This document shows positions 12,807-29,553 of a stretch of DNA of 64,000 nt, in pieces; position 1 is the first letter of the stretch; each line of letters opens with the position of its first letter. The position numbers were made by a program, and so were the translations under genes. The DNA comes from Gilvibacter sp. SZ-19 (GTDB taxonomy: Bacteria > Bacteroidota > Bacteroidia > Flavobacteriales > Flavobacteriaceae). The notes beneath the pieces were generated by a model. That model was not told where the DNA came from. It saw nothing but the letters and a program-made list of their open reading frames with translations, and did no database searches. The stretch lies in the NCBI RefSeq assembly GCF_002163875.1, contig NZ_CP019333.1, positions 1,680,864-1,744,863 on the forward strand, in the 5' to 3' direction.

Positions 12807-14062
12807 AGGTCAAGCGCTTTTATTAGAGGTTGTTCGTCTATGAGTTCTTCTGGTGTGAAAACCGGCGAAACCTTTTCTGAAAAGTCGATAATATCCACAA
12901 ATAAACTTCTTAATAGCACTATTGTTTCGGGCGTTTCATTTACTACGTAAGAAAACAATTTAACCGGGCGATATGGGACATCACCTAGCCCATCTCTGTT
13001 TAAATCATAACCGTTGTAATTGCTCCAGTAGTTTTGATTAAAACTGTTGTCATTCATATTAGAATTGTACGAAACATCGAAAGAGTTGAATTTGAAGTTA
13101 TTGAATCTGAAACTGTTGTTGTAGCAAGCCCCTCGTACTTTTACCGCCCAACCATTTTTAATGAAGTTATTGTGGTGATAATCGATTCGTGTTGAGCCTT
13201 CTACATTTATTCCGACAGTGTTTTCAACAAATTTATTATAAGTAATGGTGGTGTCATAAATCTCTTTCAATAACAAACCGTAAGCAGCTGTTCCCCAATT
13301 CAGATTAAAAGTATTGTGACTAATGGTAATGAATTTAGAGAACATAACGGCAACTCCAGCCCCATTGTTGGTAAAGGTATTGTAATGATATTCGTTATGG
13401 TTAGAGAACATAAAATGTAGGCCATATCTTATATTATCATGACTACTGTTTCCTTGTACAACACTTTGTTTCACAAATTCAAAATAAATACCATCTCTTA
13501 GATTGAACACCTCGTTGTTAGAAACCAACACTTTGGAGCAGTCCCAAAGATGTATACCGTTTCCTGCCGCGGCCTCATCTTTTTGGGTGCCATAGATCAA
13601 ATTTCCGGATACTGTGCCATTTTTTGATTTTTCAATCAGCATTCCAAAAGTTACATTTTGCAGTTGGTTGTTCTGTAATTCAAAATCAGAGCTTCTCGAT
13701 ATATAAATGGCAGCAAAGTCTTTGGTGTAGCTTTGACCGGTATTCTGTATAGTTAAGCCCTGCAAGCTTACACTGTCTGCGACGACTTTAAAACCGTATC
13801 CTTTTTCTGCAACGTCAATTACAGCCTCTGATTCGCCCATGATACACAAGGGTTTGTCTACGGTAATGTCATATTCTTTGTATGTGCCATTTTTGACTAG
13901 AAGAGACTCGTGTGGGCCTGCACCATTTATAGCATTTTGTATGGTTTGATATTCCATACGAGTATTTAGATTAATTATTTGTCCACTAACTTTTAGTGGC
14001 CAGCTAATCAAGATGATCATTACGCTTAGGATCCCTAAAAAATGAGCAGCTGTTTTTTTCAC
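12803..14062 (-). CDS. nosD: NosD periplasmic copper-site maturation protein
   Basis: The 419-residue protein begins with a signal peptide (to about SGQ at residue 28) and then shows parallel beta-helix (CASH/PbH1) repeats: runs of N-x-F/I-x-x-N such as ISHNTFNLN, ITYNKFVEN and YHHNNFIKN. NosD proteins act in the periplasm with NosFY in CuZ assembly. Start ATG 14062 lies 1 base after the nosL stop. Length and repeat content are normal for the family. Confidence 0.93.
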   Translation of the reverse strand: MKKTAAHFLGILSVMIILISWPLKVSGQIINLNTRMEYQTIQNAINGAGPHESLLVKNGTYKEYDITVDKPLCIMGESEAVIDVAEKGYGFKVVADSVSLQGLTIQNTGQSYTKDFAAIYISRSSDFELQNNQLQNVTFGMLIEKSKNGTVSGNLIYGTQKDEAAAGNGIHLWDCSKVLVSNNEVFNLRDGIYFEFVKQSVVQGNSSHDNIRYGLHFMFSNHNEYHYNTFTNNGAGVAVMFSKFITISHNTFNLNWGTAAYGLLLKEIYDTTITYNKFVENTVGINVEGSTRIDYHHNNFIKNGWAVKVRGACYNNSFRFNNFKFNSFDVSYNSNMNDNSFNQNYWSNYNGYDLNRDGLGDVPYRPVKLFSYVVNETPETIVLLRSLFVDIIDFSEKVSPVFTPEELIDEQPLIKALDL

Positions 14063-14063
14063 T

Positions 14064-14501
14064 TTACAGGCCTTCTAAAGTAAAACGTTTGGTTACAAGC
14101 GTATTCCAGTCCAAAATGGAATCTTGCGGAATATCTAGTGTAGTATATGCGTCGGCCTTAGAAGAAAAACAAGCCAAATGTGCACCCATAGGACTTTGAA
14201 TCTTGTTGTTTATTACATAATGCCCTTCTGAAGCATTAATCCACTGATTGGGATTGTTGTAGTCCATTACCACAAGGGCTGCGTGAGACTCTCTGGAATC
14301 GGCCAGGTCATTGACCATACATTCTATGGCGTCAAAAGTGAAAATTTTCCCCTTCTCAGTTACAAGCTGCGCTGCAAATCTAGGGTCAGCTATATTCATT
14401 TTGCAGTAGTGACAGCTATCGATACCATAATCGATGGATCTTACTGAAGGATTACAGGCTAACAAGATTATTCCGCTCAAGAGGATTATGACAGTTTTCA
14501 T
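14064..14501 (-). CDS. nosL: NosL copper-chaperone lipoprotein
   Basis: A lipoprotein signal with lipobox LLAC (C16) is followed by the NosL copper-binding motif CHYCKM (C30, C33, M35) and a downstream ECM (C61, M62). NosL is an outer-membrane or periplasmic lipoprotein that supplies Cu(I) for nitrous oxide reductase. The gene is adjacent to nosD (1 base) and directly follows the membrane-protein gene. Confidence 0.93.
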   Translation of the reverse strand: MKTVIILLSGIILLACNPSVRSIDYGIDSCHYCKMNIADPRFAAQLVTEKGKIFTFDAIECMVNDLADSRESHAALVVMDYNNPNQWINASEGHYVINNKIQSPMGAHLACFSSKADAYTTLDIPQDSILDWNTLVTKRFTLEGL

Positions 14502-15095
14502 TCAGATAGATTTTTTGTTTTCTCTCTTGCCAAACCAAAAAGCTAAGCCGGCGAGTGCAATTCCCAATGCGAGAAAATATGCCCCCAACTGAGGATAAGA
14601 GTGAGCTGTAAAATTTAGAATATCTTTAGATCCGAACAACGGAGGTTGGAAACCCATAACACTGCCATCAGGATTGGTGAATTTCATAATTGCCTTTGGG
14701 TCCAAATTATGGCCGTAATCGTATTCCCAGAGATAAAAATCATATACTCCGGCTATGCTCAACAGAACCATTATTGAAAACCAAACCAGATACCATTTAT
14801 GTCTCCCCCACAACACCAATAGTAATCCAAGTGCGGATGATACTAAGATAACCGCAGGGAAGATTTTGAACTCCGGAATGGCATCTGGGATATACTTCAT
14901 CCCCACGTAGTGATTCATAATATTGATATTTTTAATATCGTGTGGATTGGCGTCAGAAAAATCATTGATATGAATATACATCCCTAAGGGAGTAGGATAC
15001 TGAGGGGCTTCTAAGGTGATTTTCCACAAAGGGAATACAAATAGTAGCAGGGGCAGAAGTACTGCCAATAACATGGTGAATCGTGATTTTTTCAT
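14502..15095 (-). CDS. Nos-cluster integral membrane protein of unknown function
   Basis: A 197-residue protein with an N-terminal membrane segment (FTMLLAVLLPLLLFVFPLWKI), two central ones (VILVSSALGLLLVLW, YLVWFSIMVLLSIAGVYDFYLW) and a C-terminal one (AYFLALGIALAGLAFWFG). The region between the first two holds a conserved-looking periplasmic loop with HYVGMKYIPDAIPEF. It lies between nosZ and nosL with no gap to nosL, in the place where clade II clusters often carry a membrane protein such as NosB; I cannot confirm homology to NosB. A supporting role in nitrous oxide reduction is inferred from position only. Confidence 0.8.
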   Translation of the reverse strand: MKKSRFTMLLAVLLPLLLFVFPLWKITLEAPQYPTPLGMYIHINDFSDANPHDIKNINIMNHYVGMKYIPDAIPEFKIFPAVILVSSALGLLLVLWGRHKWYLVWFSIMVLLSIAGVYDFYLWEYDYGHNLDPKAIMKFTNPDGSVMGFQPPLFGSKDILNFTAHSYPQLGAYFLALGIALAGLAFWFGKRENKKSI

Positions 15096-15107
15096 AATCT
15101 TATTGTA

Positions 15108-15138
15108 AGACGGAAGCGCTGAAATGACGCTCCCGTCT
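15108..15138 (-). promoter_or_regulatory. Stem-loop in the nosZ to membrane-protein gap
   Basis: Within the 94-base gap after nosZ, AGACGG-A-AGCG pairs with CGCT-C-CCGTCT around a 9-base loop, a near-perfect 11-bp hairpin with one mismatch. No clear U-tract follows on the minus strand, so it is more likely an mRNA-stabilising or attenuating element that lets nosZ be expressed above the assembly genes than a full terminator. Confidence 0.55.
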
Positions 15139-15189
15139 AATTAAGGATAAGTAATAAGCACTAATCTAAATTTGCTTTGGTCTTACCTA

Positions 15190-17148
15190 TCAGTCTTCTC
15201 CTAAGGACCAGGATAAATCAATGTTTGAACTGGCTGGAGAGACTCGCACATAACCTTGCATTTCTTGGTGTAATGCCGAGCAAAAGTCAGTGCAATAGAA
15301 TGGCCATACACCTGGCTTCTTGGGTTGCCATACAATTGTCTTGGTTTGTCCAGGCATAATTAAGACTTCCGATGTATTAGCACCAATCATTGCAAACCCG
15401 TGAGGTACGTCAAAGTCTTGTTCGTGGTTAGTGATGTGAAAATAAACCTTATCACCAACCTTTATTCCTTCGATATTATCAGGAGTAAAGTGGCTGCGAA
15501 TCATTGACATATAAACATGTACTTCGTTACCGTTTCGTTCTACTCGAGTATCTGCAGGCGACATTACAGCGTAGGGGTGTTTGTTATCCTCCAGCTTGTA
15601 AATCTTTTTGGAATTTCCTTTGAGTAATTCAGCGGGACATCCTGCTGCATAATGCGGTTCACCATGAGTCGGAAAGTCAGATAAAAGTTGCATCTTATCT
15701 CCGGAAATGTCATATAGCTGTGCAGAGTGTTCCAGTTCTGGTCCAGTTGGCAGATACCGATCTTTGGTGATTTTGTTCATCGCAACAACATACTTTCCAA
15801 AGGGTTTTCTAGAATTACCACCAGGAATCATCAAGTGACCTACTGAATAGAAAGTCGGTTTGCGATCAACTACTTCCCATGTACCTAGTTTCCATTTTAC
15901 TACTTCGGATGAGATAAAGAAGGTGGTGTAAGCATTTCCTTCTGCATCAAACTCGGTATGTAATGGTCCTAGTCCGCCGCTTTTTACACTTCCGCCTAAA
16001 ATTGCTTCATAATCAAGGATAGGAATCCCGTAAGCGTTTCCGCTGAATTTTTCATTCTCAATTGCCGACATCATCTTGGTAAAAGAGTGCACTGTAACAT
16101 CCGCAGATAGTTTACCGCTTCCAACAATATATTCACCTGTTGGGTCCACATCACATCCGTGAGGTGATTTCGGAGTAGGTAAAAAATACACTGCTCCAGG
16201 CACCTCGGTAGGATCAACCGTTAGGACATCAGTAATTGTGGTCGAAGTTGCCATATGCTTAGTCTCATCATATACATTATGCATATAACTAGTTGGCATT
16301 TTTGTTCCACCACCAGCATTGACATATGCCTCTATTTTTTGCCAGTTTAACGCAGCGATAAAATCCTTGTCATTTTGAGAAGCGTTTACCTCCATTAAGG
16401 TACTTGCTTCTTCTGTATTGTAGGTAGTAAAGAAGAACCAGCCATGAGAGTTCCCTCTACCAGGGTGAGCCTTGTCGTAATCAAAGCCGGGCATCAACAC
16501 TTGGAAGGCCAGATTCATGTGTCCTGTTTCTGGGTCAACCTTATAAAAGGTCAAAGCTCCCTTAAAGTTTCCTTTCTTATCCTTGATCGCCATATCTCTT
16601 TGCGGAACAGGTACGGCAAAGCGCGTTCCCGCAACGACGTATTCTGTATTCTCTGTTACATATGATGAGCTGTGATTGCCCGCACAGTTAGGTACCTCAA
16701 TGATCTCTACTGTTTCAAAAGTTGTGAGGTCAATTCGCGCAATCCTCGGAGTATTGTTTCCGTTAACGAAGATCCATCGACCATCTAACTCACCATTTGT
16801 TTGAGAAATGTCAGGGTGGTGTAGGTCATCCCAAGGAACAAATCCAAAGGATGTATTTAACATCGGTTTGGTTTCTTCGGTGTAACCATAACCTGATGTG
16901 GGGAATTGTGAAAACACTGGTATTTCCTTGAACATGCGTCCTGAAGGCAAACCATAAACGGTTAGGTTTCCACTATATCCGCCAGAGAGGAATGCATAAA
17001 AGTCATCTTGCTCACCGGGAGCGACATATACTTTCTCTGCTGCACTAGATGATAACGCTCCATTTTTACTTGAGCTCTGATTGTTGCAAGCTGTTAAGAT
17101 GATTGCAGCTAAGCAAGTAGCTGCTAATCCTTTAATTAATGATCTCAT
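15190..17148 (-). CDS. nosZ: Nitrous-oxide reductase, clade II (Sec-type)
   Basis: The 652-residue enzyme reduces N2O to N2 in the periplasm. Its N-terminus is a Sec lipoprotein-like signal with lipobox LTAC and no twin-arginine motif, the mark of clade II. The N-terminal beta-propeller shows DDLHHPD, part of the CuZ histidine set, and further His residues (CAGNHSSS, GNSHGW, SPHGCD). The C-terminal cupredoxin domain carries the CuA site C619-TDF-C623-SAL-H627-QE-M630, with another His in DVPHGF. It lies 17 bases after the fasciclin gene in an operon with a lipoprotein cytochrome c, nosL, nosD, nosF and nosY. Confidence 0.97.
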   Translation of the reverse strand: MRSLIKGLAATCLAAIILTACNNQSSSKNGALSSSAAEKVYVAPGEQDDFYAFLSGGYSGNLTVYGLPSGRMFKEIPVFSQFPTSGYGYTEETKPMLNTSFGFVPWDDLHHPDISQTNGELDGRWIFVNGNNTPRIARIDLTTFETVEIIEVPNCAGNHSSSYVTENTEYVVAGTRFAVPVPQRDMAIKDKKGNFKGALTFYKVDPETGHMNLAFQVLMPGFDYDKAHPGRGNSHGWFFFTTYNTEEASTLMEVNASQNDKDFIAALNWQKIEAYVNAGGGTKMPTSYMHNVYDETKHMATSTTITDVLTVDPTEVPGAVYFLPTPKSPHGCDVDPTGEYIVGSGKLSADVTVHSFTKMMSAIENEKFSGNAYGIPILDYEAILGGSVKSGGLGPLHTEFDAEGNAYTTFFISSEVVKWKLGTWEVVDRKPTFYSVGHLMIPGGNSRKPFGKYVVAMNKITKDRYLPTGPELEHSAQLYDISGDKMQLLSDFPTHGEPHYAAGCPAELLKGNSKKIYKLEDNKHPYAVMSPADTRVERNGNEVHVYMSMIRSHFTPDNIEGIKVGDKVYFHITNHEQDFDVPHGFAMIGANTSEVLIMPGQTKTIVWQPKKPGVWPFYCTDFCSALHQEMQGYVRVSPASSNIDLSWSLGED

Positions 17149-17165: not shown

Positions 17166-17741
17166 TTAATTCTGTTCTGGGATAATCACTTTATCAACAA
17201 CATGTACAATGCCGTTACCTGCTGGTACACTTGCCAGAATTTTTGCGCCGCCTACATAGACATCATCACCCTTTACTTCTACGGTGATATTGAGATTGCT
17301 GGCCTGACCAAGCTTCTTAAATTTTTTCAGAAATTCTTTTGTGTAATTACCTGGAGTGACGTGATGCTTTAAAATAAAAGCCAATTGGTCTTTATTCTCT
17401 GGTTTAAGCAAGTTGTCTAAAGTGCCTTCGGGCAATGCAGCAAAGGCGTCATTGGTAGGAGCAAATACCATCAAAGGACCTGCGTTTACCAAGGCATTCT
17501 CCAATTGTGCGGCTTGCACCCCGGCTACGAGCGTAGTGTGGTCTTTGGAGCCGATGGCTATGTCTAGGACAGTAGGTTTGGACTCATCGTCTTCAATAAA
17601 AGCTTGTCCTGTGCGGTTCTGGTCTGTCGTTTCTGTTGTTGTCTTGTCATCCTGGGCGTTGCTTTCCGCTGATCTGTTGTTGCAGGCCATCAGTAAAGGA
17701 AAGATCCACAAGACGAACAATAAGTTGCGCATTAGTTTCAT
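17166..17741 (-). CDS. Fasciclin-domain lipoprotein in the nos operon
   Basis: A lipoprotein signal (lipobox LMAC, C20) precedes a low-complexity acidic linker and one FAS1 domain (about 60-190): LVNAGPLMVFAPTNDAFAALP, LAFILKHHVTPGNYTKEFL and a closing GNGIVHVVDKVIIPEQN. FAS1 domains mediate adhesion or ligand binding. Its position between the cytochrome c and nosZ genes suggests a structural or accessory role at the periplasmic reductase, which is unproven. It is 17 bases from nosZ and 24 bases from the cytochrome c gene. Confidence 0.9.
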   Translation of the reverse strand: MKLMRNLLFVLWIFPLLMACNNRSAESNAQDDKTTTETTDQNRTGQAFIEDDESKPTVLDIAIGSKDHTTLVAGVQAAQLENALVNAGPLMVFAPTNDAFAALPEGTLDNLLKPENKDQLAFILKHHVTPGNYTKEFLKKFKKLGQASNLNITVEVKGDDVYVGGAKILASVPAGNGIVHVVDKVIIPEQN

Positions 17742-17765: not shown

Positions 17766-18272
17766 CTATTGAAGTGTTCTGAAATATTCTAGTATGGATC
17801 TGGCTTCATCCTCTGTCAAGTTTTGATTTGCCATAGGGGAGCCGTTGTACTCAAGAAGAAGTTGCTTGGCTAATGGGTCATTATTTACCATACCCTCTGG
17901 GTCCAGAATCATGTTCATAACCCATTCAGGTGACCGTCTCTTTAAAATGCCATTTGGAGCTGGGCCAATGAATTTACTGCCTATCTTATGACAAGCGGTA
18001 CACTTGTATTTAAATACCTCTGCACCTTTGGCAACCATGTTTTGATCTATGGTCTCACTGAGGGTAAGTGATTTTATCGGGCCGACTCCTTTATTATTAA
18101 GATCTATTGTTTTCTCGGCAGAAATTGCAGAGGTTTGTGGTTGTTGTTTAGGAGTTTCGGTTTTATTGCCTCCAATTTTGATTTGATTGGATTCTTTTTT
18201 TTCTTCGGTCTCGCCACATCCAATCAAAAAAGAAGCTAAGAGACATGAAATGAAGACTTTTGAAATTCTCAT
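17766..18272 (-). CDS. Lipoprotein c-type cytochrome, probable electron donor to NosZ
   Basis: Starting at ATG 18272 the protein has 168 residues with lipobox LIGC (C19), a glutamine/lysine-rich linker and a single class I cytochrome c domain: heme motif C91-TA-C94-H95 and a likely axial M147 in GSPMANQ. It is the first gene of the nos operon and is expected to feed electrons to NosZ from the membrane side. An in-frame upstream start at 18326 would place MSYFNY before the signal and run through the promoter palindrome, so the MRISKVF start is preferred. Confidence 0.9.
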   Translation of the reverse strand: MRISKVFISCLLASFLIGCGETEEKKESNQIKIGGNKTETPKQQPQTSAISAEKTIDLNNKGVGPIKSLTLSETIDQNMVAKGAEVFKYKCTACHKIGSKFIGPAPNGILKRRSPEWVMNMILDPEGMVNNDPLAKQLLLEYNGSPMANQNLTEDEARSILEYFRTLQ

Positions 18273-18289
18273 AGTTGTTGATTTTGATT

Positions 18290-18297
18290 CAAAAGTA
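18290..18297 (-). promoter_or_regulatory. Candidate -7 box of the nos operon
   Basis: On the minus strand this reads TACTTTTG, an exact TAnnTTTG match, 17 bases before the cytochrome c ATG. The 16-bp palindrome upstream is centred about 33 bases from this box, roughly -40 relative to the expected start, the usual class II activator position. Confidence 0.5.
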
Positions 18298-18318
18298 GAT
18301 TGGCCTAAGTAGTTAAAA

Positions 18319-18334
18319 TATGACAATTGTCATA
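18319..18334. promoter_or_regulatory. Perfect 16-bp palindromic operator between nos operon and Rrf2 gene
   Basis: TATGACAATTGTCATA is a perfect palindrome in the 116-base divergent intergenic region. The half-site ATGAC-N4-GTCAT has the 5-4-5 geometry of Crp/Fnr-type sites, and it could equally be the operator of the divergent Rrf2 regulator. Binding protein not determined. Confidence 0.65.
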
Positions 18335-18388
18335 AAAAAGAATAAAAGGATATTTTTATCTTTTAATGCAAAAAAAGAAGAAGAATAT

Positions 18389-18817
18389 ATGTTGTCTAAA
18401 TCCGCTCAATATGCCGTAAAAGCGCTAATTCATCTGGCTGCCAATAGCGACAAGCAGAACAAAATACTAGCGTCTAATCTGGCAAAGGAGATTGATGTGC
18501 CGAAAGCATTTCTATCTAAAATATTGCAGCAGCTTGCACATTCTAATCTGGTTAGTGGAATAAAAGGACCTAACGGAGGTTTTTATCTGAGTCACAAACA
18601 AAAGCAAAATTCAGTGTATCGGGTTATTCTCATAGTAGAAGGCAGAGATACCTTTGGAAGCTGCGTACTAGGTCTGCACCAATGTGATTACGAAAATCCC
18701 TGCGCTATGCATGATCTTATTGCACCGTCGCAAACCGTTTTAAAAGAAAATTTAAAGCGTATAAGTATTTTACAAGCGGCTCAAGGTGATACTAAGGGTA
18801 CATTGGATCTTCATTGA
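18389..18817 (+). CDS. Rrf2-family regulator with three-Cys cluster motif (NsrR/IscR-like)
   Basis: The true start is ATG 18389 (MLSKSAQYAVKAL); the upstream in-frame extension is lysine-rich and lacks family similarity. The 142-residue protein has the Rrf2 winged helix (ILASNLAKEIDVPKAFLSKILQQLA with GPNGGFYL wing) and three cysteines C92-x6-C99-x5-C105, which fits an Fe-S cluster as in NsrR or IscR. NsrR-type proteins sense nitric oxide, so NO control of the divergent nos operon is plausible but unproven. Its 3' end overlaps the convergent trifunctional gene by 26 bases. Confidence 0.9.
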   Translation: MLSKSAQYAVKALIHLAANSDKQNKILASNLAKEIDVPKAFLSKILQQLAHSNLVSGIKGPNGGFYLSHKQKQNSVYRVILIVEGRDTFGSCVLGLHQCDYENPCAMHDLIAPSQTVLKENLKRISILQAAQGDTKGTLDLH

Positions 18818-21797
18818 GGACTTTTTCTAGATAGTGTAGCAATTGCTCTGCATTGTGCGGGCTAAATACCATGGGTGGTTTTATCTTGACCACGTTGTCG
18901 TCCGGGCCGTCTACAGACATTAAAAAACCGTAATACTTCATGCGATTGGCCAGGTATTTGGCCTGTGTTGTAAGGGGTTTTAAGTTGGAGTCGCACAGTT
19001 CAAAGCCCAAAAAGAAGCCTTTGCCGCGTACATCAGCAATGATAGGATACTCTTTTTGCAAGGCACGCAGTCCGCTGAGGAGTTGATCGCCGACCTGATG
19101 AGCGTTATTCATAAGACCTTCTTGCTCAATAATAGCTAAGACTGCAGATCCAATGGCGGCAGACACCGGGTTTCCACCAAAGGTGTTGAAATATTCCATG
19201 CCGTTGTTAAAGGCTGATGCCACCTCCGCAGTACAAACTACCGCAGCTACAGGGTGCCCATTGCCTAATGGTTTGCCTATGGTAACAATATCAGGCACTA
19301 CATCGTATTGCTGAAATCCCCAGAAGCTGTCTCCTAAGCGACCCATACCCACTTGCACCTCGTCTGCTATACACAATCCACCGGCGGCTCTAACTTCTTT
19401 GTAAGCCGCTTGTAAAAAATGAGGAGGTAGTGGTATCTGGCCGCCACAACTAAGTACAGATTCCAAGAGCAGCCCTCCAAGTCTTATTCCTCGACTTTCC
19501 ATGACCTCAATTTTTCGTCCAAGATCCTCTGCATAGGCTAGGCCTTCGTCGGCTCCGCGGTGATTACCTCTAAAGGTATCAGGAATTGGAAAAACGTGGG
19601 TAGTGGCCGGAGGCTCATAACCTCCTTTTCGCGCGAATTTGTAGTGACTCAGATCTACACAGGTTCTGGTGTTGCCGTGGTATCCACTTTCTGATACCAG
19701 CATATGTCTAGACCCTGTAACCGCTTCTGTCATTCGAACAGCAAGCTCATTGGCCTCACTGCCCGAATTCACGAAATGCACCACACAGAGCTCCTTAGGA
19801 AAGGTCTTTAAGAGGTCTTCTGCAAACTTGATCACGTTCTTATGCAAATAGCGGGTGTTGGTATTCAAGGCTGCCATTTGTTTTTGAGCGGCCTCCACTA
19901 CCTGCGGATGTTCGTGCCCAACGTGAGCAACATTGTTTACGGTGTCTATGTATTTGCGTCCCCAGGAGTCTACCAAATAAACACCCTGTCCGCGAACTAT
20001 ATGCAAGGGGCTATCATAAGACAAACTCATGCTATAGCCCAATACCTCTTTGCGTTTTTTTAGCAGTTCATCGGATTGGTTCTTTTCATCACCATTCAGT
20101 TCGGGATCTTTGAAAAACAGATTCGGATCTGGACAGAGGTCACGCCATATTCCGCGCTGATGTGCATAACAGACCCCAGGAAAATCATCGGTATAATCTA
20201 AAAGGTCTAACATAAATTGATAATGCAAATGAGGAGACCAACTGCCATTTTCATGAGCGGCTCCGAGCATGCCCACTAAACCACCTGCGGCTATGGTGTC
20301 TCCCACCTTATGTGCCAAGGCAGTCTCTGGGACCAAATGCCCATAAAGGGTGTAGAATTCTAAATCGACGAGCTTGTGTTTAAGAACTACCAAGCCGCCG
20401 TATTCTTTATTGCCTTGGTCGTTGACAGCAATCACAACTTCACCTTCATGTAAACTGTGTACAGGGGTATTAGCGGGCAGCCAAAAATCAACACCCAGAT
20501 GTACGGTTCTACTTTGTGCGCCGTAGTTGCCCACCGTATCGTAGGCAGGATCGGTATAAAGGGGGCGCGGTTCTTGATAGCCTCCGGCAATGATCTTATC
20601 TGGATTTTTAGCCTGTAATCTATCGATCTTAAACTCAAACAATTCCAGATCGTTGAATTCTTCTTGAGTACCTATCCACAAACTAGAAACGCTGAGGTCT
20701 AGGTGCTGTGCTGCTTTAAAGCTTGTTGTTGGAAATATTTCGTCGAAGCTTCTTTGCTGCTGATTCGCCCAGGTCTTAAAGGCCTGAGTTTGTGGGTGGG
20801 CATCATACCCGCAGGCCTTTCTGAAACTGTAATGCGCAAATCTCGGATGGATAGCGCTCCAAAGTTTTAGATTTTCCCATACGGCCTTTTGACTTATTTG
20901 TAGGTATTGATTGTCAGGTTCTGCCAAGGCATTTATTTTGCCATGCACTGCACTTAGAACCAAACGCATACCGATCAAGGTGTAGAGGTGTTGCAGTTCC
21001 TCTTCTTGCAGTGGGAATACCTCATGCACTCCTTGTAAAAAAGGGTTGAGGGCATCTAAAGGGTCAGGGAATCCACTGATAAGATAAGCACTACACACAG
21101 CAATTTCGTTAATGGTCTGCCCGTAGCTCGTATCTCCAAAATCTATCAACCCGTTTATTTGTTGGGTTTTGGTATCGACCAAAATGTTATTGTCGTTCAA
21201 GTCGTTGTGAATCCATTGTTTTCTCAGTTTTTGATATGCAGCCTTGTCGGCTTTATATCGATCTAAGAAAAATGCCAACAATTGCCTATCGGCAGCGTTG
21301 AAGTTGTGGAGTTCGTCTTGGCACCAGTCGGCCTTATTGAGTTCCCACTTCGGATTCAGACTCCGAGCAGCCGCATGAAAACTCTGCAGCGCTTCCAAAA
21401 GCCGGCCACTCGTTTTTCCAAGTTCGTATCGGATTTGTTCCGTATGCGGATTTACGCCGGACCATAACTCTCCTGGAATCCAGCTAATAATGCGTAAGGA
21501 GCGTTGGCCGCTGTTAATGCTGATAGTACAATGAGATTCACCTGCTTTAGTTTTTAAAGGAACAGGAACTTTTATTCCGCTGTGCTCTTGGGTGAGATAC
21601 AAGAGTAGCTCTTGCTCAAATTTGGCCGTATCCTGTGCTGCATTTTCGGGCCCGAGCTTAACGAGAAAGTCTTGCGCATTGCTGGTTTTAAAATGATAAT
21701 TCTTAGTGTATTCTCCGTAAAGTAATTCTAGGGTTCCATCCAGCCCGAAATGGGCCTTTATTTCCTTAAGGATAGCTGCAGTTGCAGTTTGGGTCAT
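18792..21797 (-). CDS. Trifunctional fusion: APH-type kinase, M23-like domain, class III aminotransferase/phospholyase
   Basis: This 1001-residue protein has three parts. Residues ~1-330 form an aminoglycoside-phosphotransferase-like kinase with catalytic HNDLNDNN (197-204) and IDFGD (218-222). Residues ~425-540 are an M23/LytM-type domain with H433-xxx-D437, GH at 486-487 and HLH at 523-525. Residues ~575-1001 are a PLP fold I class III aminotransferase with the TIGKPLGNG lysine. Human relatives of the outer domains are hydroxylysine kinase and 5-phosphohydroxylysine (or phosphoethanolamine) phospho-lyase, so phosphorylation followed by elimination of phosphate from a hydroxy-amine is the likely chemistry. 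No signal peptide is seen, so the role of the M23 domain inside the cytoplasm is puzzling. Confidence 0.88.
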
Positions 21798-21885
21798 AGC
21801 TTTTTATTTTAGCCGAAATAAAGTTACGCAAACTGTAGTTTTTCAACGGGCCGATTTTTCCACTAATCGTACCCAAATTACCACT

Positions 21886-21917
21886 CGTCGACACTAAACG
21901 GGGTATTCGTCGAAACT
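21886..21917 (+). promoter_or_regulatory. LytTR-type direct repeats upstream of the H-NOX operon
   Basis: CGTCGACACT (21886-21895) and CGTCGAAACT (21908-21917) repeat with a 22-base period, about two helical turns. This fits the spacing of LytTR-domain binding sites, and the operon ends in a LytTR regulator. The repeats lie 53 bases before the first start codon (21970). Confidence 0.55.
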
Positions 21918-21969
21918 TAGATGGCAAGATTTGTATTATTTAACACTTTTGCATATCCAAGATACCCCT

Positions 21970-22389
21970 ATGAAAACATTAGAAATCCTATTACTAGAAG
22001 ATGATCAAATAGAGATCATGAAGCTAGAAAGGGCTTTTAAAAAACTCGACACCCAGCACAAGGTGATCCCCGTAAACAACGGCGAGGACGCTTTGGAGTA
22101 TTTAAAAGATGCCCACCGACTACCAGACCTCGTTTTTCTTGATCTCAATATGCCGCGATTGAATGGTCTGGAGTTTTTAGCGATCCTAAAAAAGGACGAT
22201 CGCCTTAAATTCTTGCCGACAGTGGTACTAACTACTTCGAGTAACGAAAAAGACCTTTTTGCCTGCTATGAGATCGGCGTTGCCGGATACGTATTAAAGC
22301 CCTTACAATACCAAGACTATGTAAATCGAATAAGCGCTGTATTGGCCTATTGGGAAAATAACGAACTCGTAAAACCTGTTTTGAGTTAA
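21970..22389 (+). CDS. Single-domain response regulator (receiver only)
   Basis: From ATG 21970 the 139-residue protein is a stand-alone receiver: acidic pocket E10-D11-D12, phospho-acceptor D58 in LVFLDLNMP, T87/T88 in VVLTTS and K110 in VLKP. This subtype resembles Rcp1-like receivers that partner with histidine kinases having HSHDLK-type DHp domains, both of which are encoded in the same operon. It has no output domain and so probably acts as a phosphorelay shuttle or by protein contact. The in-frame ATG at 21931 lies within the leader and was not used. Confidence 0.92.
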   Translation: MKTLEILLLEDDQIEIMKLERAFKKLDTQHKVIPVNNGEDALEYLKDAHRLPDLVFLDLNMPRLNGLEFLAILKKDDRLKFLPTVVLTTSSNEKDLFACYEIGVAGYVLKPLQYQDYVNRISAVLAYWENNELVKPVLS

Positions 22390-22399
22390 GCCAACACTT

Positions 22400-22942
22400 A
22401 TGAAAGGAATTGTATTTACAGAACTTATGGAATTGGTCGAAGAAAAGTTTGGCCTAGAGACCGTAGATTATATCATCGATCAGTCAGATCTACCTTCAGG
22501 TGGTGTCTATACCGCCGTTGGCACCTACGATTTTGGAGAGATGCTTCAACTTTTAACGCATCTCAGTGCTAAAACAGGAATAGATGTCGGCACCTTACAG
22601 CGTGTTTTTGCCGAGCATTTCTTTCAGGTAATTAAAAGAGAGTACCCTTCTTTTTTACAATTGTATAAAGACCCAATTGAAATGTTGGCGTCTATTGAGA
22701 ATCACATTCACGTGGAGGTGAGAAAGATCTACCCGGACGCTCAGCTTCCTACATTTGACATCCAAGAACGAAGCGCTAACCACCTTGTTATGGTTTACAG
22801 CTCTTCCAGATCGATGTATAATTTTGGTTTAGGATTGATGGAACAAACCTTCAAACACTTCGACAAAGAAGCGACTATAACCATGGATATGCTCAAGGAA
22901 GACGGATCTGAGGTTAAATTCGTAATTTCCAGTAATGGATAA
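22400..22942 (+). CDS. H-NOX heme nitric-oxide sensor protein
   Basis: A stand-alone heme-NO/O2-binding domain of 180 residues, normal for the family. The proximal heme ligand is predicted as H104 in HVEVRKIYP, and the heme-propionate motif YxSxR is Y133-S135-R137; the offset of 29 between His and Tyr equals that of characterised H-NOX proteins. It begins 10 bases after the receiver gene and its stop overlaps the histidine kinase start by 8 bases. Bacterial H-NOX proteins normally inhibit or activate an adjacent kinase on binding NO, which is the probable role here. Whether it also binds O2 cannot be read. Confidence 0.95.
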   Translation: MKGIVFTELMELVEEKFGLETVDYIIDQSDLPSGGVYTAVGTYDFGEMLQLLTHLSAKTGIDVGTLQRVFAEHFFQVIKREYPSFLQLYKDPIEMLASIENHIHVEVRKIYPDAQLPTFDIQERSANHLVMVYSSSRSMYNFGLGLMEQTFKHFDKEATITMDMLKEDGSEVKFVISSNG

Positions 22943-24659
22943 CAACGAGCATAGACTCCTTCTGAGGAAACTCGAACGGGAGAAAGCCGCCAGGAAACAG
23001 GCAGAAAAGATCCTGGAGGACAAAGCCGCTGAGCTCTATCAGCGCACGGAGCAATTGCACGAGGCGAATGAAAAATTGGAGGTGCTTCTGGGCGAAAGAG
23101 ATTCCCAGCTCCAAGGAATATTCGAAAACATAGTCGATGCCTATGTGGTGATGGACTTAGGTGGGAACATCTTGCGTATGAACGAGGCTGCCAACAAACT
23201 CTTTGGCTTTGATCATGAGCTGGAAAAGGTCAATGTTACCTCATTGATCTATCCAGAGGATTATGTCTACGCCATGGAGTCCTTTAAAGCGCTAACAGAA
23301 AAAGGATACTTTACCAATTATCAGGCTCGCGTGTTAACCCGCCAGCAAGGTGTCAGATGGGTGCAGATCAATGCCTCGGTAGTATTAGATAATAAAAAGC
23401 GACCCATAGCTGCACAGGGTATTGTAAGAGACATAACGGACCAACTCAACAAAGCCAATGCTTTGGCTTTTATTTCTGAAGTTTCTCAATGTATATTAGG
23501 AAAAGTTAATCTCATTGAAATAGGTACAGCAATCGCAAAAAGGGTTGCTGACTTTTTGGGCACAAACGATTGTATAGTGTACATTAAGCGTCCGGAGATG
23601 AATGCTTTGCAACAAATTTCAGCTGTTGGCGCAAAATTGAATGACTATGGAACTATAGTAAATCCAATAGAAATTCCTCTTGGTAAGGGTATTGTTGGAA
23701 CGGTTGCAAAATCGGGCATCGGGGAAATTATACCTGATACCACCGCAGATAACAGATATATAGTTGATGATGCGATTAGGCTATCTGAAATTACGGTTCC
23801 TATACTATTGAATGGTGAATTAGTTGGAGTTATTGATGCTGAACATCAGTCGAAAAATTATTTTACCGAATTCCAATTGGGAACATTAAATACTGTTTCT
23901 AATTTGGTTGCATTGCAATTGAATTCGGCTTTAGATTTTGAAGCACGCAAAAAAAGTGAAATGCGCAATGTAAAATTGTTGCGACAACTTGAAAGGTCTA
24001 ACAACGAACTCAGTGAATATGCTCATGTAGTATCTCATGACTTGAAGTCTCCATTGCGAAGTATAAATGCACTTACGGCTTGGATACGAGAAGACAACTT
24101 CGATACTTTGAACACTAAGTCAAAAGAACATTTTGATCTTTTAGAAAGTACTATAGATAAAATGGAAAAATTAATTTCTAATGTTCTTAAATATGCAGCT
24201 ATAGATCAAAGCGACGAAGATTTTTCTGTTGTGGACACAGGAGAACTAGTCTGTGATATTGTCAAAACAATATATATTCCGAGTCGCATAGAAGTTCAAA
24301 TTCCGAAGCGGCTTCCAGTGGTTTTGGCCAGTCGGGTAATGTTGCAACAACTGTTTCAAAACTTGATGGTGAATGCAATTAAATACAACGATAAGGAGAA
24401 AGGTTTTGTAAGGATCTGCTCCGAAGATAAAGAAACCTTTTACCAATTCAGTGTGACCGATAATGGACAGGGAATTCCTCCGGAATACCACGAGAAGATA
24501 TTTAAGATATTTCAATCCCTAAATCCAGACGGTGAATCCAACGGATTAGGACTGGCCTTGGTTAAAAAGGTAGTGGAATTTTACGATGGAGAAGTCTGGT
24601 TAGAAAGTACCCCAGGCGAAGGCACGACTTTTTACTTTACCCTAAGCAAGAAAAAATGA
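22935..24659 (+). CDS. PAS-GAF sensor histidine kinase, probable H-NOX partner
   Basis: The 574-residue cytosolic kinase has an N-terminal coiled coil (~5-55), a PAS domain (~57-170), a GAF domain (~185-335), a DHp helix with phospho-acceptor H368 in YAHVVSHDLKSPLR, and a HATPase domain with N box NLMVNAIKYND and G boxes DNGQGIPP and GLGLALV. No membrane segment is seen. It overlaps the H-NOX gene by 8 bases and the FIST gene by 4. Direct control by NO-bound H-NOX is inferred from family knowledge. The DNA of the GAF and DHp part (about 23460-24300) is visibly more AT-rich than the ends. Confidence 0.93.
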   Translation: MDNNEHRLLLRKLEREKAARKQAEKILEDKAAELYQRTEQLHEANEKLEVLLGERDSQLQGIFENIVDAYVVMDLGGNILRMNEAANKLFGFDHELEKVNVTSLIYPEDYVYAMESFKALTEKGYFTNYQARVLTRQQGVRWVQINASVVLDNKKRPIAAQGIVRDITDQLNKANALAFISEVSQCILGKVNLIEIGTAIAKRVADFLGTNDCIVYIKRPEMNALQQISAVGAKLNDYGTIVNPIEIPLGKGIVGTVAKSGIGEIIPDTTADNRYIVDDAIRLSEITVPILLNGELVGVIDAEHQSKNYFTEFQLGTLNTVSNLVALQLNSALDFEARKKSEMRNVKLLRQLERSNNELSEYAHVVSHDLKSPLRSINALTAWIREDNFDTLNTKSKEHFDLLESTIDKMEKLISNVLKYAAIDQSDEDFSVVDTGELVCDIVKTIYIPSRIEVQIPKRLPVVLASRVMLQQLFQNLMVNAIKYNDKEKGFVRICSEDKETFYQFSVTDNGQGIPPEYHEKIFKIFQSLNPDGESNGLGLALVKKVVEFYDGEVWLESTPGEGTTFYFTLSKKK

Positions 24660-25756
24660 TATTCGAGAATCCAAATCCCCGCGAGATCGCTCAAGCGATG
24701 CAACAAAATGCAGCTCCAGATACATTGTTTGTAGTCATGGTGGCCGAAAACACGCCCTTAGATGTTGCTCAGTTAATGACTGCGCTTAACGAAACAACCT
24801 GTCAGTATATTGGTGGGATCTTTCCAAAACTAATCTTTGACGATAAGTTACTAAATCTAGGTGTTATAGTGACTCAGCTCAAGGGGCTACAGAAAATTCA
24901 CACGGTCCGTGGTTTGGCGGACGTAAGTTATGCCCTTGAAAAGCATCCTGAAGTCTTGGGTAGTGATTATTGTGTATTTGCCTTGGTAGATGGTCTGGCT
25001 TCTGGTATCTCCGGATTCCTTTCTGAGCTTTATCGCAGCTATGGAAGTGAAATCCGCTATTTTGGAGGAGGAGCTGGCAGTCTGAGTTTACAACAAGCGC
25101 CCTGTATCTTTAGTCGTGAAGGTTTCTTAGAAGATGCCGCTGTTTATTGTTTGCTGAACCAGACCACGCATTTGGGAGTGAAGCACGGTTGGGAAAAGCT
25201 GGGGGGTCCTTTTATTGCTACCAAGACCAATGCCAATATAGTCGAAGAGATCAATTGGAAACCTGCCTTTGAGGTTTACAGGGAGCTTGTAGAGGCCGAT
25301 TCTGGAGCGAGTTTTGACAGTCAAGCATTTTTTGATATTGCCAAAGGATACCCTTTTGGGATGGTACGTGAAGGCTCTGAATGTATTGTTCGCGATCCGA
25401 TCGCGGTAAATGAGCAAGGCCATTTGATTTGTGTAGGTGAAGTTGCTGAAAACACCTTTTTAAATGTTTTAAAGGGAAAGATTGACCCGCTTATCATAGC
25501 AGCTGGACAAGCCGCAGCAGAAGCTGCAGATCAAGCCGGAAAGCCTACCGCGGCTATTATAATTGATTGTATATCGCGAGTACTTTTTTTGGGTGATGAC
25601 TTTGAGCGCGAAGCAAAAGCAGTTTCTATCGCTTTAAGAAATAAAGAAATTGATCCTACCATTCGTGGTGCGCTTAGTTTAGGAGAAATTTCTTCATTTG
25701 GCGAAGGCTTTTTGGAATTTTTTAATAAGACCACTGTAGTGGGACTATTTGAATAG
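24656..25756 (+). CDS. FIST-domain sensory protein
   Basis: This 366-residue soluble protein has an N-terminal FIST_N region (VVMVAENTPLDVAQLMTALNE, then YRSYGSEIRYFGGGAGSLSL) and a FIST_C region ending in RGALSLGEISSFGEGFLEFFNKTTVVG, a characteristic C-terminal motif. FIST proteins are predicted small-ligand sensors, possibly for amino acids, and are typically next to signalling kinases. It overlaps the upstream kinase by 4 bases (ATGA) and is followed 2 bases later by a second kinase, so the ligand signal probably enters the same relay. Confidence 0.88.
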   Translation: MIFENPNPREIAQAMQQNAAPDTLFVVMVAENTPLDVAQLMTALNETTCQYIGGIFPKLIFDDKLLNLGVIVTQLKGLQKIHTVRGLADVSYALEKHPEVLGSDYCVFALVDGLASGISGFLSELYRSYGSEIRYFGGGAGSLSLQQAPCIFSREGFLEDAAVYCLLNQTTHLGVKHGWEKLGGPFIATKTNANIVEEINWKPAFEVYRELVEADSGASFDSQAFFDIAKGYPFGMVREGSECIVRDPIAVNEQGHLICVGEVAENTFLNVLKGKIDPLIIAAGQAAAEAADQAGKPTAAIIIDCISRVLFLGDDFEREAKAVSIALRNKEIDPTIRGALSLGEISSFGEGFLEFFNKTTVVGLFE

Positions 25757-25758
25757 CG

Positions 25759-26907
25759 ATGTCTGGAGGAACTCTACAAACAATTTTTAGTCTTTATGAA
25801 TTGTCTATGGCAATTGGGAAATCTTTGAATTACCGGGACAATTGCGACCATTTTATGAAAGTGTTTTTAAGCCGCAAGATGCTCAAAGCAGGGTGGATAG
25901 TACAGCTACACAATAACAGATTAAGATTGCGATATGCTATACCTGGGCCTTATAGACCCAAGGAAGAAGTTGATATGGATTTTATACACGGTTTATTAAA
26001 CGAGAATAAACCCGTCTGCGTTTCGGTAAATAAAAGAGTTAAAGATATATGTCCAGTTCCTGTTTCTGGGGGCTTTATAATTGTGTTTCCGATTACAAAT
26101 GATAGTATTTTATCGGTTCATAGCCCCAGAAATGAGCCTTGGAGTTCAGTAGAGTTAAGGCAGTTGGATCCTATTATCCGTAAATTTGGAGTTTCCCTAA
26201 AAGCTTCTGCCGATTACGAAGAACAAAAACTCTTAACAAAAAGATTAGAACGAAATAATAACGATCTTAATGATTATGCTCATATTGTATCTCATGATCT
26301 GAAATCACCCTTGCGTAATATTCACAGCTTAGTGCAGTGGATAGAAGAAGACTTAGACAGCGATGAGCCCAAAAAAGCGGCTACCCATATGCCTTACATT
26401 TACTCAAGTTTGGAAAAAATGGACAGTTTGATCTCCGGTATTTTGCGATACTCCAATTTGCGAGAATTACAGGAGAGTTTGGTGAAAACAGATCTCAACA
26501 AACTCATCGATGAGGTAAAAAGCATGCTGCTAGTACCTTTGGGTGTTCAAATTGTCATTCACGAGATGCCCCAAGTACGTGCAGATCGCTTACGCATGAG
26601 TCAAGTCTTTCAGAATTTGATGGATAACGCTTTGACGGCGCTAAAACGCTCTGGAGATTGTCTGGAGGTCGGATATAAAGATCTAGGATCTCATTATGAG
26701 TTCTATGTCAAAGACAACGGTCCGGGTATCGCTAAGGCACATCAGGAAAAAGTATTTCAAGTATTCCAAAAGCTCGATGCCGACTCTACTAAAAGTGGTA
26801 TAGGTCTGGCTATAGTAAGTCGTATCGTAGAAGATCACGGCGGACAGATCAGGTTAGAGAGTCGCGAGGGTGAAGGGGCCGCGTTTTATTTTACCCACCC
26901 AAAATAG
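25759..26907 (+). CDS. Sensor histidine kinase paired with FIST protein
   Basis: A 382-residue kinase with no membrane segments. The N-terminal ~150 residues form an unassigned GAF-like sensory region. The DHp helix carries H179 in YAHIVSHDLKSPLR, and the ATPase domain has NLMDNALTAL, DNGPGIA and GIGLAIV. Its DHp domain closely resembles that of the upstream H-NOX-linked kinase, so the two are probably paralogues from duplication. The first ~500 bases are AT-rich and the ATPase part is not. It likely receives input from the FIST protein and passes phosphate to the Hpt protein and the receivers encoded in the operon. Confidence 0.9.
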   Translation: MSGGTLQTIFSLYELSMAIGKSLNYRDNCDHFMKVFLSRKMLKAGWIVQLHNNRLRLRYAIPGPYRPKEEVDMDFIHGLLNENKPVCVSVNKRVKDICPVPVSGGFIIVFPITNDSILSVHSPRNEPWSSVELRQLDPIIRKFGVSLKASADYEEQKLLTKRLERNNNDLNDYAHIVSHDLKSPLRNIHSLVQWIEEDLDSDEPKKAATHMPYIYSSLEKMDSLISGILRYSNLRELQESLVKTDLNKLIDEVKSMLLVPLGVQIVIHEMPQVRADRLRMSQVFQNLMDNALTALKRSGDCLEVGYKDLGSHYEFYVKDNGPGIAKAHQEKVFQVFQKLDADSTKSGIGLAIVSRIVEDHGGQIRLESREGEGAAFYFTHPK

Positions 26908-26921
26908 TACCTTTGATTGCT

Positions 26922-27239
26922 ATGGAGCAGCCTAATCTAGATTACCTTAAAGAGATCTCAGACGGTCAACCGGAAGTGATCGCCCAGTTCGTTGGGATCA
27001 TTAAAGAGGAATTCCCCGGAGAATTCGAGCAGTATCAGCAGTTAATGAAAGAAAAAGATTGGCAGCACGCGGCTGCAATGGTTCACAAGCTTAAGCATAA
27101 AATTAGTATTTTAGGCCTGAAGGAAGGAAGAGCTGTAGCGGTAACACACGAAGATGCCCTAAAAGGAGGTGATTATCAGCACAGTGAAGCTTTTGCTGCC
27201 GTATTGAACAAGATAGAAGTATTTTTAAAAGACAAATAA
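26922..27239 (+). CDS. Histidine phosphotransfer (Hpt) protein
   Basis: From ATG 26922 this 105-residue helical protein has the Hpt active-site helix AAMVHKLKHKISILGL with phospho-accepting H55 and the following Lys residues. The upstream TTG at 26913 would add only three residues. Hpt proteins carry phosphate between receivers; here a receiver-only protein (first gene) and a LytTR regulator (last gene) are the obvious partners. It is 14 bases after the kinase and 6 bases before the regulator. Confidence 0.88.
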   Translation: MEQPNLDYLKEISDGQPEVIAQFVGIIKEEFPGEFEQYQQLMKEKDWQHAAAMVHKLKHKISILGLKEGRAVAVTHEDALKGGDYQHSEAFAAVLNKIEVFLKDK

Positions 27240-27245
27240 TTGCTT

Positions 27246-27953
27246 ATGAAGTGTATTATTATTGATGATGAGGTTACCGCTAGAGCCGTTATTGAACAAC
27301 TTTGTCAGCAGATAGGTGGTCTTGATGTAGTAGCACAATTTGACAATGCGGTAGCGGCCCTGAAGTATACCAATAAAAGCAAGGTAGATGTAATATTTTT
27401 AGACATTCAAATGCCTTCATTTACCGGTTTTGATTTTTTAGACTCTTTAAAAACAGATACACAGGTTGTATTAATTACAAGCAATCCACATTTTGCGCTT
27501 GAATCATATAATTATGCGTGTGTTGAAGATTATCTTTTAAAGCCAATAAACTCACAGCGATTCATCAAGACTATCGATAAAATATCGCGAAAGTTAGGTA
27601 GGATTAGTATGGAAAATTCTACAGAAGCGATTGAAAAGGATAATGATGTTTTATTTATAAACATTGACCGAAGATTAGTCAAGATTGTGATAGATGAGAT
27701 TTATCTTATAGAGGCCAACGGTGATTATGTGTTAATAAAAACTTTGAATAAAAACTATTCTGTGCATGTTACAGTCAAGAAATTACTTGAAAAACTTCCG
27801 ACTAATAAATTTGTTAGAGTTCATCGTGGTTATGTTATAAATATTTCTAAGATTACTGATATTGAAGATAACAGTGTTCTTATTGAGCGCGATGTTATTC
27901 CTATATCTAGGTCAAATAGACCAGAATTAATGAGAAAATTAAACTTATTATAG
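27246..27953 (+). CDS. LytTR-family response regulator, output of the H-NOX/FIST relay
   Basis: The 235-residue protein has a receiver (acidic pair D7-D8, phospho-acceptor D53 in VIFLDIQMPSF, switch lysine in YLLKPINS) and a C-terminal LytTR DNA-binding domain (~135-235: LVKIVIDEIYLIEANGDYV, LPTNKFVRVHRGYVIN, SRSNRPEL). It is the likely transcriptional output of the seven-gene operon and a candidate to bind the direct repeats at 21886-21917. ATG 27246 is preferred to the TTG at 27240. The gene is strikingly more AT-rich than the Hpt gene before it. Confidence 0.93.
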   Translation: MKCIIIDDEVTARAVIEQLCQQIGGLDVVAQFDNAVAALKYTNKSKVDVIFLDIQMPSFTGFDFLDSLKTDTQVVLITSNPHFALESYNYACVEDYLLKPINSQRFIKTIDKISRKLGRISMENSTEAIEKDNDVLFINIDRRLVKIVIDEIYLIEANGDYVLIKTLNKNYSVHVTVKKLLEKLPTNKFVRVHRGYVINISKITDIEDNSVLIERDVIPISRSNRPELMRKLNLL

Positions 27954-28338
27954 TCACATAAATTTGTCCTATTCTAGGGTGTATATTGATTAAAATAATT
28001 TGTGGTTTACTTATTTAATAGAGTTGCTCATCATTGATAAATTGCAAACAGAGTAATGTTTTTATGAAAATGTCCCTAACGATCTCTTTGAAGGTATTGT
28101 CTGAGCAATAAACCACAAGAGAATCATATTTGCATACTTATCATTGATTCGAGCATCTCATTTAGCGAACAATTCTCTTTAGTTCGTTAGGACAAATCCC
28201 TGTGAGGTATTCTCTTCAAAGCTCGAAACAATTAATTGCCTTTTAATGCCCATTCATCTGTGCAGACTGGTTATTAATCGAAATACCGCGAGTTGAATTA
28301 TTGCTGAAATCTATCTTTGAGCAATTAACAAAAATTCT

Positions 28339-28866: not shown

Positions 28867-29319
28867 ATGCGCAGTACCATTATAATCTATTGCAGAAATC
28901 AAGAAGGCTTGATTGATAAAATTCCATTCGGAAGGTTTTTAGATGAAAATTCAAATTACAGTTTTTGTTTTGTCAACGACGGCAGTGATGATGCTACAAT
29001 AACTATTTTAGACACCATCGAAAGACATTACAAGGAACAAGTAAAGGTGTTATATTCCAAAAAGTGCCTGGGCTACTATCATGCCTTACAATTGGGATTG
29101 AGATTTGTCCTTAAAAACAATGAATTTGATTATATAGGATTGCTGAAGACAGAGCTTAGCATCGAGTTGATGGATTTTGGTTTTCTTGAAAAAGAAATAA
29201 TTAATAGTACAGAATTGGTAAGAGTAAACAATATTTACGATTTTAACGGTTCTCGCAAAAAAGGTGTTCGGGGTATCGTATATAAACTATTAAAGAATCT
29301 AGAGCATTCTAATTCATAA
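28867..29319 (+). CDS. Truncated family 2 glycosyltransferase-like protein
   Basis: The 150-residue product starts like a GT-A glycosyltransferase (STIIIYCRNQEGLIDKIP, then FCFVNDGSDDATITILD, a DGSxD/T nucleotide-sugar motif, and YYHALQLGLRFVL). The later DxD metal-binding and acceptor regions expected in a complete ~230-300-residue enzyme are missing or replaced. It is AT-rich and lies in a debris region, ending 15 bases before a degraded frame of different base composition. Probably a non-functional remnant, though a short derivative protein cannot be excluded. Confidence 0.55.
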   Translation: MRSTIIIYCRNQEGLIDKIPFGRFLDENSNYSFCFVNDGSDDATITILDTIERHYKEQVKVLYSKKCLGYYHALQLGLRFVLKNNEFDYIGLLKTELSIELMDFGFLEKEIINSTELVRVNNIYDFNGSRKKGVRGIVYKLLKNLEHSNS

Positions 29320-29334
29320 AGCAGAAATAAATAA

Positions 29335-29553
29335 ACCCTCTACGTTCTTAAGCGTAGCGGCGATCCTGTGGTTAATATCTTTTCCTAAAATTTGGAGCTA
29401 GATCTAAAGGCTAGCCTTCAGATTCCAGGCCGACTACTAAGTATTTACTTAGCCTACAACAACTTTACTTTGGTAGAATCCAATACTGTTCAGCTGCAGT
29501 GGGATCAATCTATCAATACCTTTGGATTGGGCGAGATCAGCATCGCTGCCTAA
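29335..29553 (+). pseudogene. C-terminal remnant of an unrecognised protein, with internal stop
   Basis: A frame open from 29335 reads YVLKRSGDPVVNIFS, then TAA at 29386-29388, and continues in the same frame as LELDLKASLQIPGRLL...NTFGLGEISIAA to a TAA at 29551-29553. Codon use is normal for the chromosome and unlike the AT-rich DNA just upstream, so this looks like the tail of a deleted chromosomal gene. The family is not recognised. It abuts the convergent DUF4407 gene. Confidence 0.45.

Follow-up and report, generated by a model that had tools for sequence, protein, structure and literature searches.

A conserved H-NOX/FIST operon of Flavobacteriaceae predicted to encode a Spo0-type phosphorelay with a LytTR operator at surface polysaccharide genes

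Here, we describe a seven-gene operon of Gilvibacter sp. SZ-19, located in a 64,000-nucleotide stretch of its genome (NZ_CP019333.1, positions 1,680,864 to 1,744,863; hereafter the window). In order, it encodes a single-domain receiver (RR1), a haem nitric oxide (NO) sensor of the H-NOX family, a histidine kinase (HK1), a FIST sensor, a second histidine kinase (HK2), an Hpt phosphotransfer protein and a LytTR response regulator (Table 1). The operon probably encodes a four-step phosphorelay of the Spo0 type, in which two interchangeable sensor-kinase inputs act through the LytTR protein on surface polysaccharide. Its parts are ordinary, their combination and output are unusual, and what is new is the predicted operator together with the polysaccharide regulon.

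As the original prediction had described, the seven genes form an intact unit on one strand, with all open reading frames complete and the main domains above their Pfam cut-offs. H-NOX and HK1 overlap by 8 bp and HK1 and FIST by 4 bp, FIST and HK2 are separated by 2 bp, and the gaps between HK2 and Hpt and between Hpt and LytTR are both below 20 bp, as in genes read from one transcript. For Hpt and LytTR, the ATG codons at 26922 and 27246 are the better starts. The operon copies are the sole H-NOX gene and the sole FIST gene of the 3.1-Mb genome, and the closest named relatives are Gilvibacter (H-NOX identity 84-86%).

Table 1. Features of the H-NOX/FIST operon and its surroundings (window positions).
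Feature	Position	Strand	Basis
Predicted operator, tandem direct repeat of two 17-bp units 22 bp apart	21881..21919	+	Top-scoring tandem in the window
RR1, single-domain (CheY/Spo0F-like) receiver, predicted relay intermediate	21970..22389	+	Pfam Response_reg 2e-20; conserved first operon gene
H-NOX haem NO sensor (predicted)	22400..22942	+	Pfam HNOB 1.4e-40; haem residues conserved in alignment
HK1, PAS-GAF-HisKA-HATPase kinase, predicted H-NOX partner	22935..24659	+	Pfam PAS, GAF, HisKA and HATPase_c; 8-bp overlap with H-NOX
FIST sensor, 366 aa, type B	24656..25756	+	Pfam FIST 2.8e-20, FIST_C 3.3e-21
HK2, HisKA-HATPase kinase with its own N-terminal region, predicted FIST partner	25759..26907	+	Pfam HisKA and HATPase_c
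Hpt phosphotransfer protein	26922..27239	+	Pfam Hpt 1.6e-7; VHKLKHKIS motif
REC-LytTR DNA-binding output regulator	27246..27953	+	Pfam Response_reg and LytTR; phospho-Asp and Lys intact
Decayed glycosyltransferase family 2 (GT2) gene	28867..29319, further fragment ~29395-29550	+	tblastn 1e-23, 1e-14

The original prediction had called for a survey of gene neighbourhoods. Of 395 Bacteroidota genomes, 27 have H-NOX, and the operon order recurs in dozens of genera, including Algibacter, Winogradskyella, Olleya, Lacinutrix, Aquimarina, Tenacibaculum, Dokdonia and Flavivirga. FIST is present at 52 of 80 related loci with organism names, the other 28 having a five-gene form without FIST and HK2; at 46 of the 52, the seven genes stand in one unbroken run, whereas the remaining six are interrupted by a contig end, a wider gap or a truncated gene. 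This order is conserved far beyond chance. Throughout the 80 loci, FIST and HK2 are either both present or both lacking, and their place is invariably between HK1 and Hpt; FIST presence requires at least 19 changes on a tree of RR1 and LytTR, which is a quick tree with many weak branches. FIST and H-NOX also co-occur at the genome level (18 of 27 H-NOX genomes vs 71 of 368 others; odds ratio 8.4, p=4e-7). The composition, which had been put forward as novel, is therefore widespread, and its uniqueness is ruled out by the 52 FIST-bearing loci; FIST genes near hnox had already been recorded in a 2022 review, among the neighbours of one H-NOX group (PMC8738867). Searches of the open-access literature found no description of the operon or of its operator. 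At two loci of one genus (L045, L047), a third kinase follows FIST-HK2, another sign of kinase cassettes being added to the operon. In one genome (L069, L070), RR1-H-NOX is present in two near-identical copies separated by about 57 kb, and next to each copy the opposite strand carries Hpt-LytTR.

RR1, Hpt and LytTR accompany one another whether the operon has seven genes or five, and the phospho-sites for His-Asp-His-Asp transfer are conserved, the phospho-accepting His of Hpt lying within its conserved motif. The LytTR domain scores 67 bits (cut-off 22.6). Non-hybrid kinases, a single-domain receiver, a separate phosphotransferase and a DNA-binding receiver are thus all found in one conserved unit, which is the parts list of a Spo0-type relay. 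Because neither HK1 nor HK2 carries its own receiver domain, RR1 is the probable target of both. The specificity positions of the DHp domain are near-identical in the two kinases (on average 3.06 of 4 in common), reading RSAL in 88 HK1 proteins and most commonly RSTL or RSAL in HK2; unrelated kinases were not scored, and the match lends slight weight to one common receiver.

By prediction, the H-NOX protein is almost certainly a nitric oxide sensor. The haem residues named in the original prediction (H104, Y133, S135 and R137) are present, as is P117; H104, P117 and Y133 are invariant among 41 aligned H-NOX proteins, S135 and R137 are conserved in at least 90%, and the HNOB domain reaches 139.3 bits (curated cut-off 25.5). 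The protein is devoid of cysteine and hence of a zinc redox site. In one genus, the slot is occupied by an H-NOX of another clade, only 20-26% identical to that of the window, and there the N-terminus of HK1 consists of HNOBA and PAS domains; this co-variation argues that H-NOX pairs with HK1. The unusual H-NOX clade needs one change on the RR1 and LytTR tree.

The second sensor shows a similar pattern. Its FIST and FIST_C domains score 73.4 and 76.2 bits (cut-offs 23.2 and 28.5), and an AlphaFold2 model (pLDDT 91) has the FIST domain of FBXO22 as its nearest fold and sole clear PDB match; by sequence, no convincing relative of solved structure was found. Two FIST types occupy this slot, type A (~377 aa) and type B (365-366 aa, the type of the window), which are about 20% identical to each other. 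Type A resembles the FISTs of Legionella and Azospirillum, and type B those of haloarchaea and Salinibacter (35-40% identity), which likewise adjoin a GAF- or PAS-domain gene, encoding a kinase in the Halorubrum case. HK2 retains its catalytic motifs and begins with a region of about 165 residues that matches no Pfam family. This distinct N-terminus follows type B FIST in 7 of 7 cases, even where the kinase core is of the local lineage, and the HK2 proteins of two loci (L117 and L058) share 17% identity up to the DHp helix and 77% beyond it. FIST type thus co-varies with the HK2 N-terminus, which suggests that the two are partners. These natural cassette swaps point to where each sensor contacts its kinase. 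The earlier claim that two sensor-kinase pairs converge on one output accordingly stands as regards two pairs feeding a shared RR1, Hpt and LytTR trunk, given the behaviour of the cassette as a unit and the N-terminal co-variation, while the four-step order is a proposal.

Upstream of RR1, a repeat unit, CCATTCGTCGACACTTA, was found in 95 of 97 homologous regions, essentially on the forward strand only, with a start-to-start spacing of 21 bp in 73 of 79 cases. In the window, its two units (21881-21897 and 21903-21919) give the best tandem match, with a score of 44.6, no other match exceeding 10, and 2.68 Mb of shuffled sequence yielded no tandem match. LytTR sites have been described as direct repeats 12 bp apart (PMC4064291), and a 9-bp core plus a 12-bp spacer makes 21, so the period of the operator fits such repeats. 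Furthermore, the core, CCATTCGTC, is one base off the site CCGTTCGTC of AlgR, a LytTR protein controlling alginate genes (PMC4064291). Position and similarity to the AlgR site point to the LytTR protein of the operon as the likely operator-binding protein. A laxer scan of the window with a degenerate single unit returned 4 matches against 3.4 expected, a chance level, and for this reason only tandem sites are trusted. By eye, a degenerate pair with a 21-bp period, CCATTCATCT...TTATTAATCG, can be seen at 28250-28287; it fails the matrix scan.

Pattern scans of 18-24 operon-bearing genomes, in which reversed-pattern controls were near zero, revealed further tandem sites, many of them clustered within about 30 kb of the operon. 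The genes that follow these sites belong to a polysaccharide cluster (flippase, REC-GT2, UDP-glucose dehydrogenase (UGD), Wzc-like and STAS proteins) or encode a DUF6923 protein secreted by the type IX secretion system (T9SS). With a matrix trained solely on operon promoters and the background 99th percentile as threshold, 43 of 55 DUF6923 upstream regions score above background (p=1e-35), together with those of STAS (15/24), GT4 (10/21), REC-GT2 (8/14) and UGD (3/5); the threshold is not exceeded upstream of TPR, GH5 or several further genes of the cluster. The best background matches themselves include several sugar-nucleotide dehydrogenase, export and flippase genes. In the related genome G395, about 215 kb separate the DUF6923 gene from the operon, yet the gene retains an operator-like site upstream. 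At four Aquimarina loci (L125, L132, L157, L162), genes that by eye resemble nucleotide-sugar dehydrogenases are divergent from the operon and carry operator-like tandem sites, which suggests that they are further targets.

On these grounds, we propose that NO would bind the ferrous haem of H-NOX, and that NO-bound H-NOX would alter the autophosphorylation or phosphatase activity of HK1 through the HK1 N-terminal region. FIST, probably a sensor of haem/NO or another small ligand, would act likewise on HK2. Both kinases would phosphorylate (or dephosphorylate) RR1, from which phosphate would pass to Hpt and then to REC-LytTR. The phosphorylated regulator would bind direct repeats arranged in tandem (period 21-22 bp) and situated about 90-140 bp upstream of the genes under its control, namely its own operon and, in relatives, genes for exopolysaccharide synthesis and export and for the T9SS-secreted DUF6923 protein. 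The net effect may be an NO-dependent control of surface polysaccharide, that is, of attachment or dispersal. The integration of NO with nutrient signals, as suggested earlier, receives no backing here: nothing points to nutrients, and the predicted targets are exopolysaccharide and secreted-protein genes.

Several observations weigh against this proposal, concerning the FIST ligand, the place of RR1, a link to denitrification and the state of the system in this genome. The window FIST is distant from curated NosP, scoring 40.4 bits against the NCBIfam NosP equivalog cut-off of 450 (38-67 bits in its relatives), and it has neither the Cys nor the His that type A FISTs conserve at their C-terminus. 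Since it belongs to the NosP domain family but falls below the NosP cut-off, two NO sensors and NO plus another ligand are both possible, and the second input may also be NO. That FIST instead senses free haem, an amino acid or another metabolite, so that NO is integrated with a chemically different signal, is a real possibility, if not the expected one: the low NosP scores, the two very different FIST types in the slot with type B being haloarchaeal/Salinibacter-like, and the repeated changes of cassette state, expected of an optional and different input, all speak for it, whereas a FIST whose ligand has been tested, NosP, is a haem NO sensor acting on its adjacent kinase (PMC12570481), and FIST is strongly associated with H-NOX genomes. 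It is unlikely that the kinases are opposed, with one pair phosphorylating RR1 and the other mainly dephosphorylating it, such that FIST-HK2 would be a brake or filter on the NO signal. The cassette is dispensable, and near-identical DHp residues would be expected for a common substrate; however, the catalytic motifs of HK2 and the kinase domains of HK1 are retained, and the sequence does not show whether either acts positively or negatively. The placement of RR1 as the relay intermediate is drawn from gene order and from the receiver-less kinases, and RR1 is a stand-alone receiver at the opposite end of the operon from Hpt, as would suit a separate output such as motility, with Hpt-LytTR fed by a hybrid kinase elsewhere. 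This arrangement is nevertheless quite improbable given the constant company of RR1, Hpt and LytTR in both forms, the lack of receivers in the kinases, and the tie between operator and operon. A link to denitrification was rejected: although a nosZ cluster lies about 5 kb away, NosZ is not enriched in H-NOX genomes (11/27 vs 116/368 others, p=0.39), and a connection with the organism's own denitrification is unproven.

The remaining points concern this genome in particular. In G395, LytTR and a DUF4407 gene enclose a polysaccharide cluster; at that place in the window, the cluster is missing, and only a GT2 relic with a C-terminal fragment remains, matching the intact GT2 genes (270-273 aa) that G395 has in the syntenic position (Table 1). 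Polysaccharide synthase-like and DUF6923 genes are absent from the whole genome, in which pattern scans found only one further, weak candidate tandem site (genome position 2001237, minus strand; L225 9237-9274), about 100 bp upstream of a gene whose product is a secreted 'QVGINTT' protein of 153 aa; G396 has a related gene in the corresponding position (L243), likewise with a site. The window LytTR differs at 28 of 131 conserved columns, the most among 89 sequences, and is 60% identical to the LytTR proteins of both sister genomes, which are 89.5% identical to each other. All this would suit a decaying remnant that has lost its main targets, a rather doubtful view, as the seven reading frames are all open, the promoter operator is kept, and the other six proteins are unremarkable in their identities to the sisters (RR1 83-91%, H-NOX 84-86%, FIST 75-79%). 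In the LytTR receiver, the phospho-Asp and Lys are intact; a suspected loss of its conserved Thr was dismissed, as T78 is present and an Ile lies one residue earlier. For the phosphorelay favoured here, the absence of the polysaccharide part means that the local output is probably reduced or rewired.

Several neighbouring genes were also noted. The tandem operator sits in an intergenic region common to the operon and a divergent 1001-aa gene (18792-21797, minus strand), which by eye appears to be a fusion of kinase-like, M23-peptidase-like and class III aminotransferase-like parts and recurs in G395, G396, G029 and a few other genomes. A Sec-type (clade II) nosZ with apparent nosL, nosD, ABC ATPase and permease genes occupies 11321-17148 (minus strand); beside it are a fasciclin-like gene (17166-17741), a cytochrome c gene (17766-18326) and a divergent Rrf2 regulator (18320-18817).

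In the Bacillus Spo0 phosphorelay, several kinases feed Spo0F, which passes phosphate through Spo0B to Spo0A. The present operon shares with it several non-hybrid kinases, a single-domain receiver, a separate phosphotransferase and one DNA-binding output, but differs in its separate soluble sensors, an Hpt-family protein in place of Spo0B, a LytTR protein in place of Spo0A, a predicted surface-polysaccharide output, and kinase cassettes that are gained, lost and exchanged. Proteobacterial H-NOX/histidine kinase systems (HnoX-HnoK; HqsK-LuxU; PMC8738867) likewise place a stand-alone H-NOX beside a soluble histidine kinase, use phosphotransfer via a receiver and Hpt, and connect NO with surface behaviour; their outputs, however, are cyclic di-GMP (c-di-GMP) enzymes or quorum-sensing regulators rather than a LytTR protein with an operator at polysaccharide genes, and a second sensor-kinase pair within the same operon is a feature of the present system. 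NosP-NahK/NosK-NosR (PMC12570481) also combines a soluble FIST with an adjacent kinase that has no recognised sensory domain but carries an N-terminal stretch of similar length, whereas here the FIST scores below the NosP cut-off, no c-di-GMP output domain is found, and FIST and H-NOX share one operon. Pseudomonas aeruginosa AlgZR (PMC4064291) resembles the predicted output: a LytTR-family regulator with a similar site (CCGTTCGTC vs CCATTCGTC) governs genes for exopolysaccharide, among them algD, which encodes a sugar-nucleotide dehydrogenase. Unlike AlgZR, the present system has a strict 21-bp tandem operator and a phosphorelay with soluble sensors instead of the AlgZ kinase.

Marine Flavobacteriaceae play a major part in colonising surfaces and using polysaccharides, and the NO pathways covered in the reviews consulted are mostly proteobacterial and run via c-di-GMP or quorum sensing. 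We tentatively suggest that this family may possess a so far undescribed NO-to-exopolysaccharide pathway independent of c-di-GMP, in which two structurally unrelated haem NO sensors, H-NOX and FIST, would signal through separate, exchangeable kinase cassettes into one Spo0-like relay, whose LytTR regulator would act on slime and adhesin genes bearing a 21-bp tandem operator. A conserved candidate pathway, a defined operator and a short target list make NO control of attachment in Bacteroidota directly testable.

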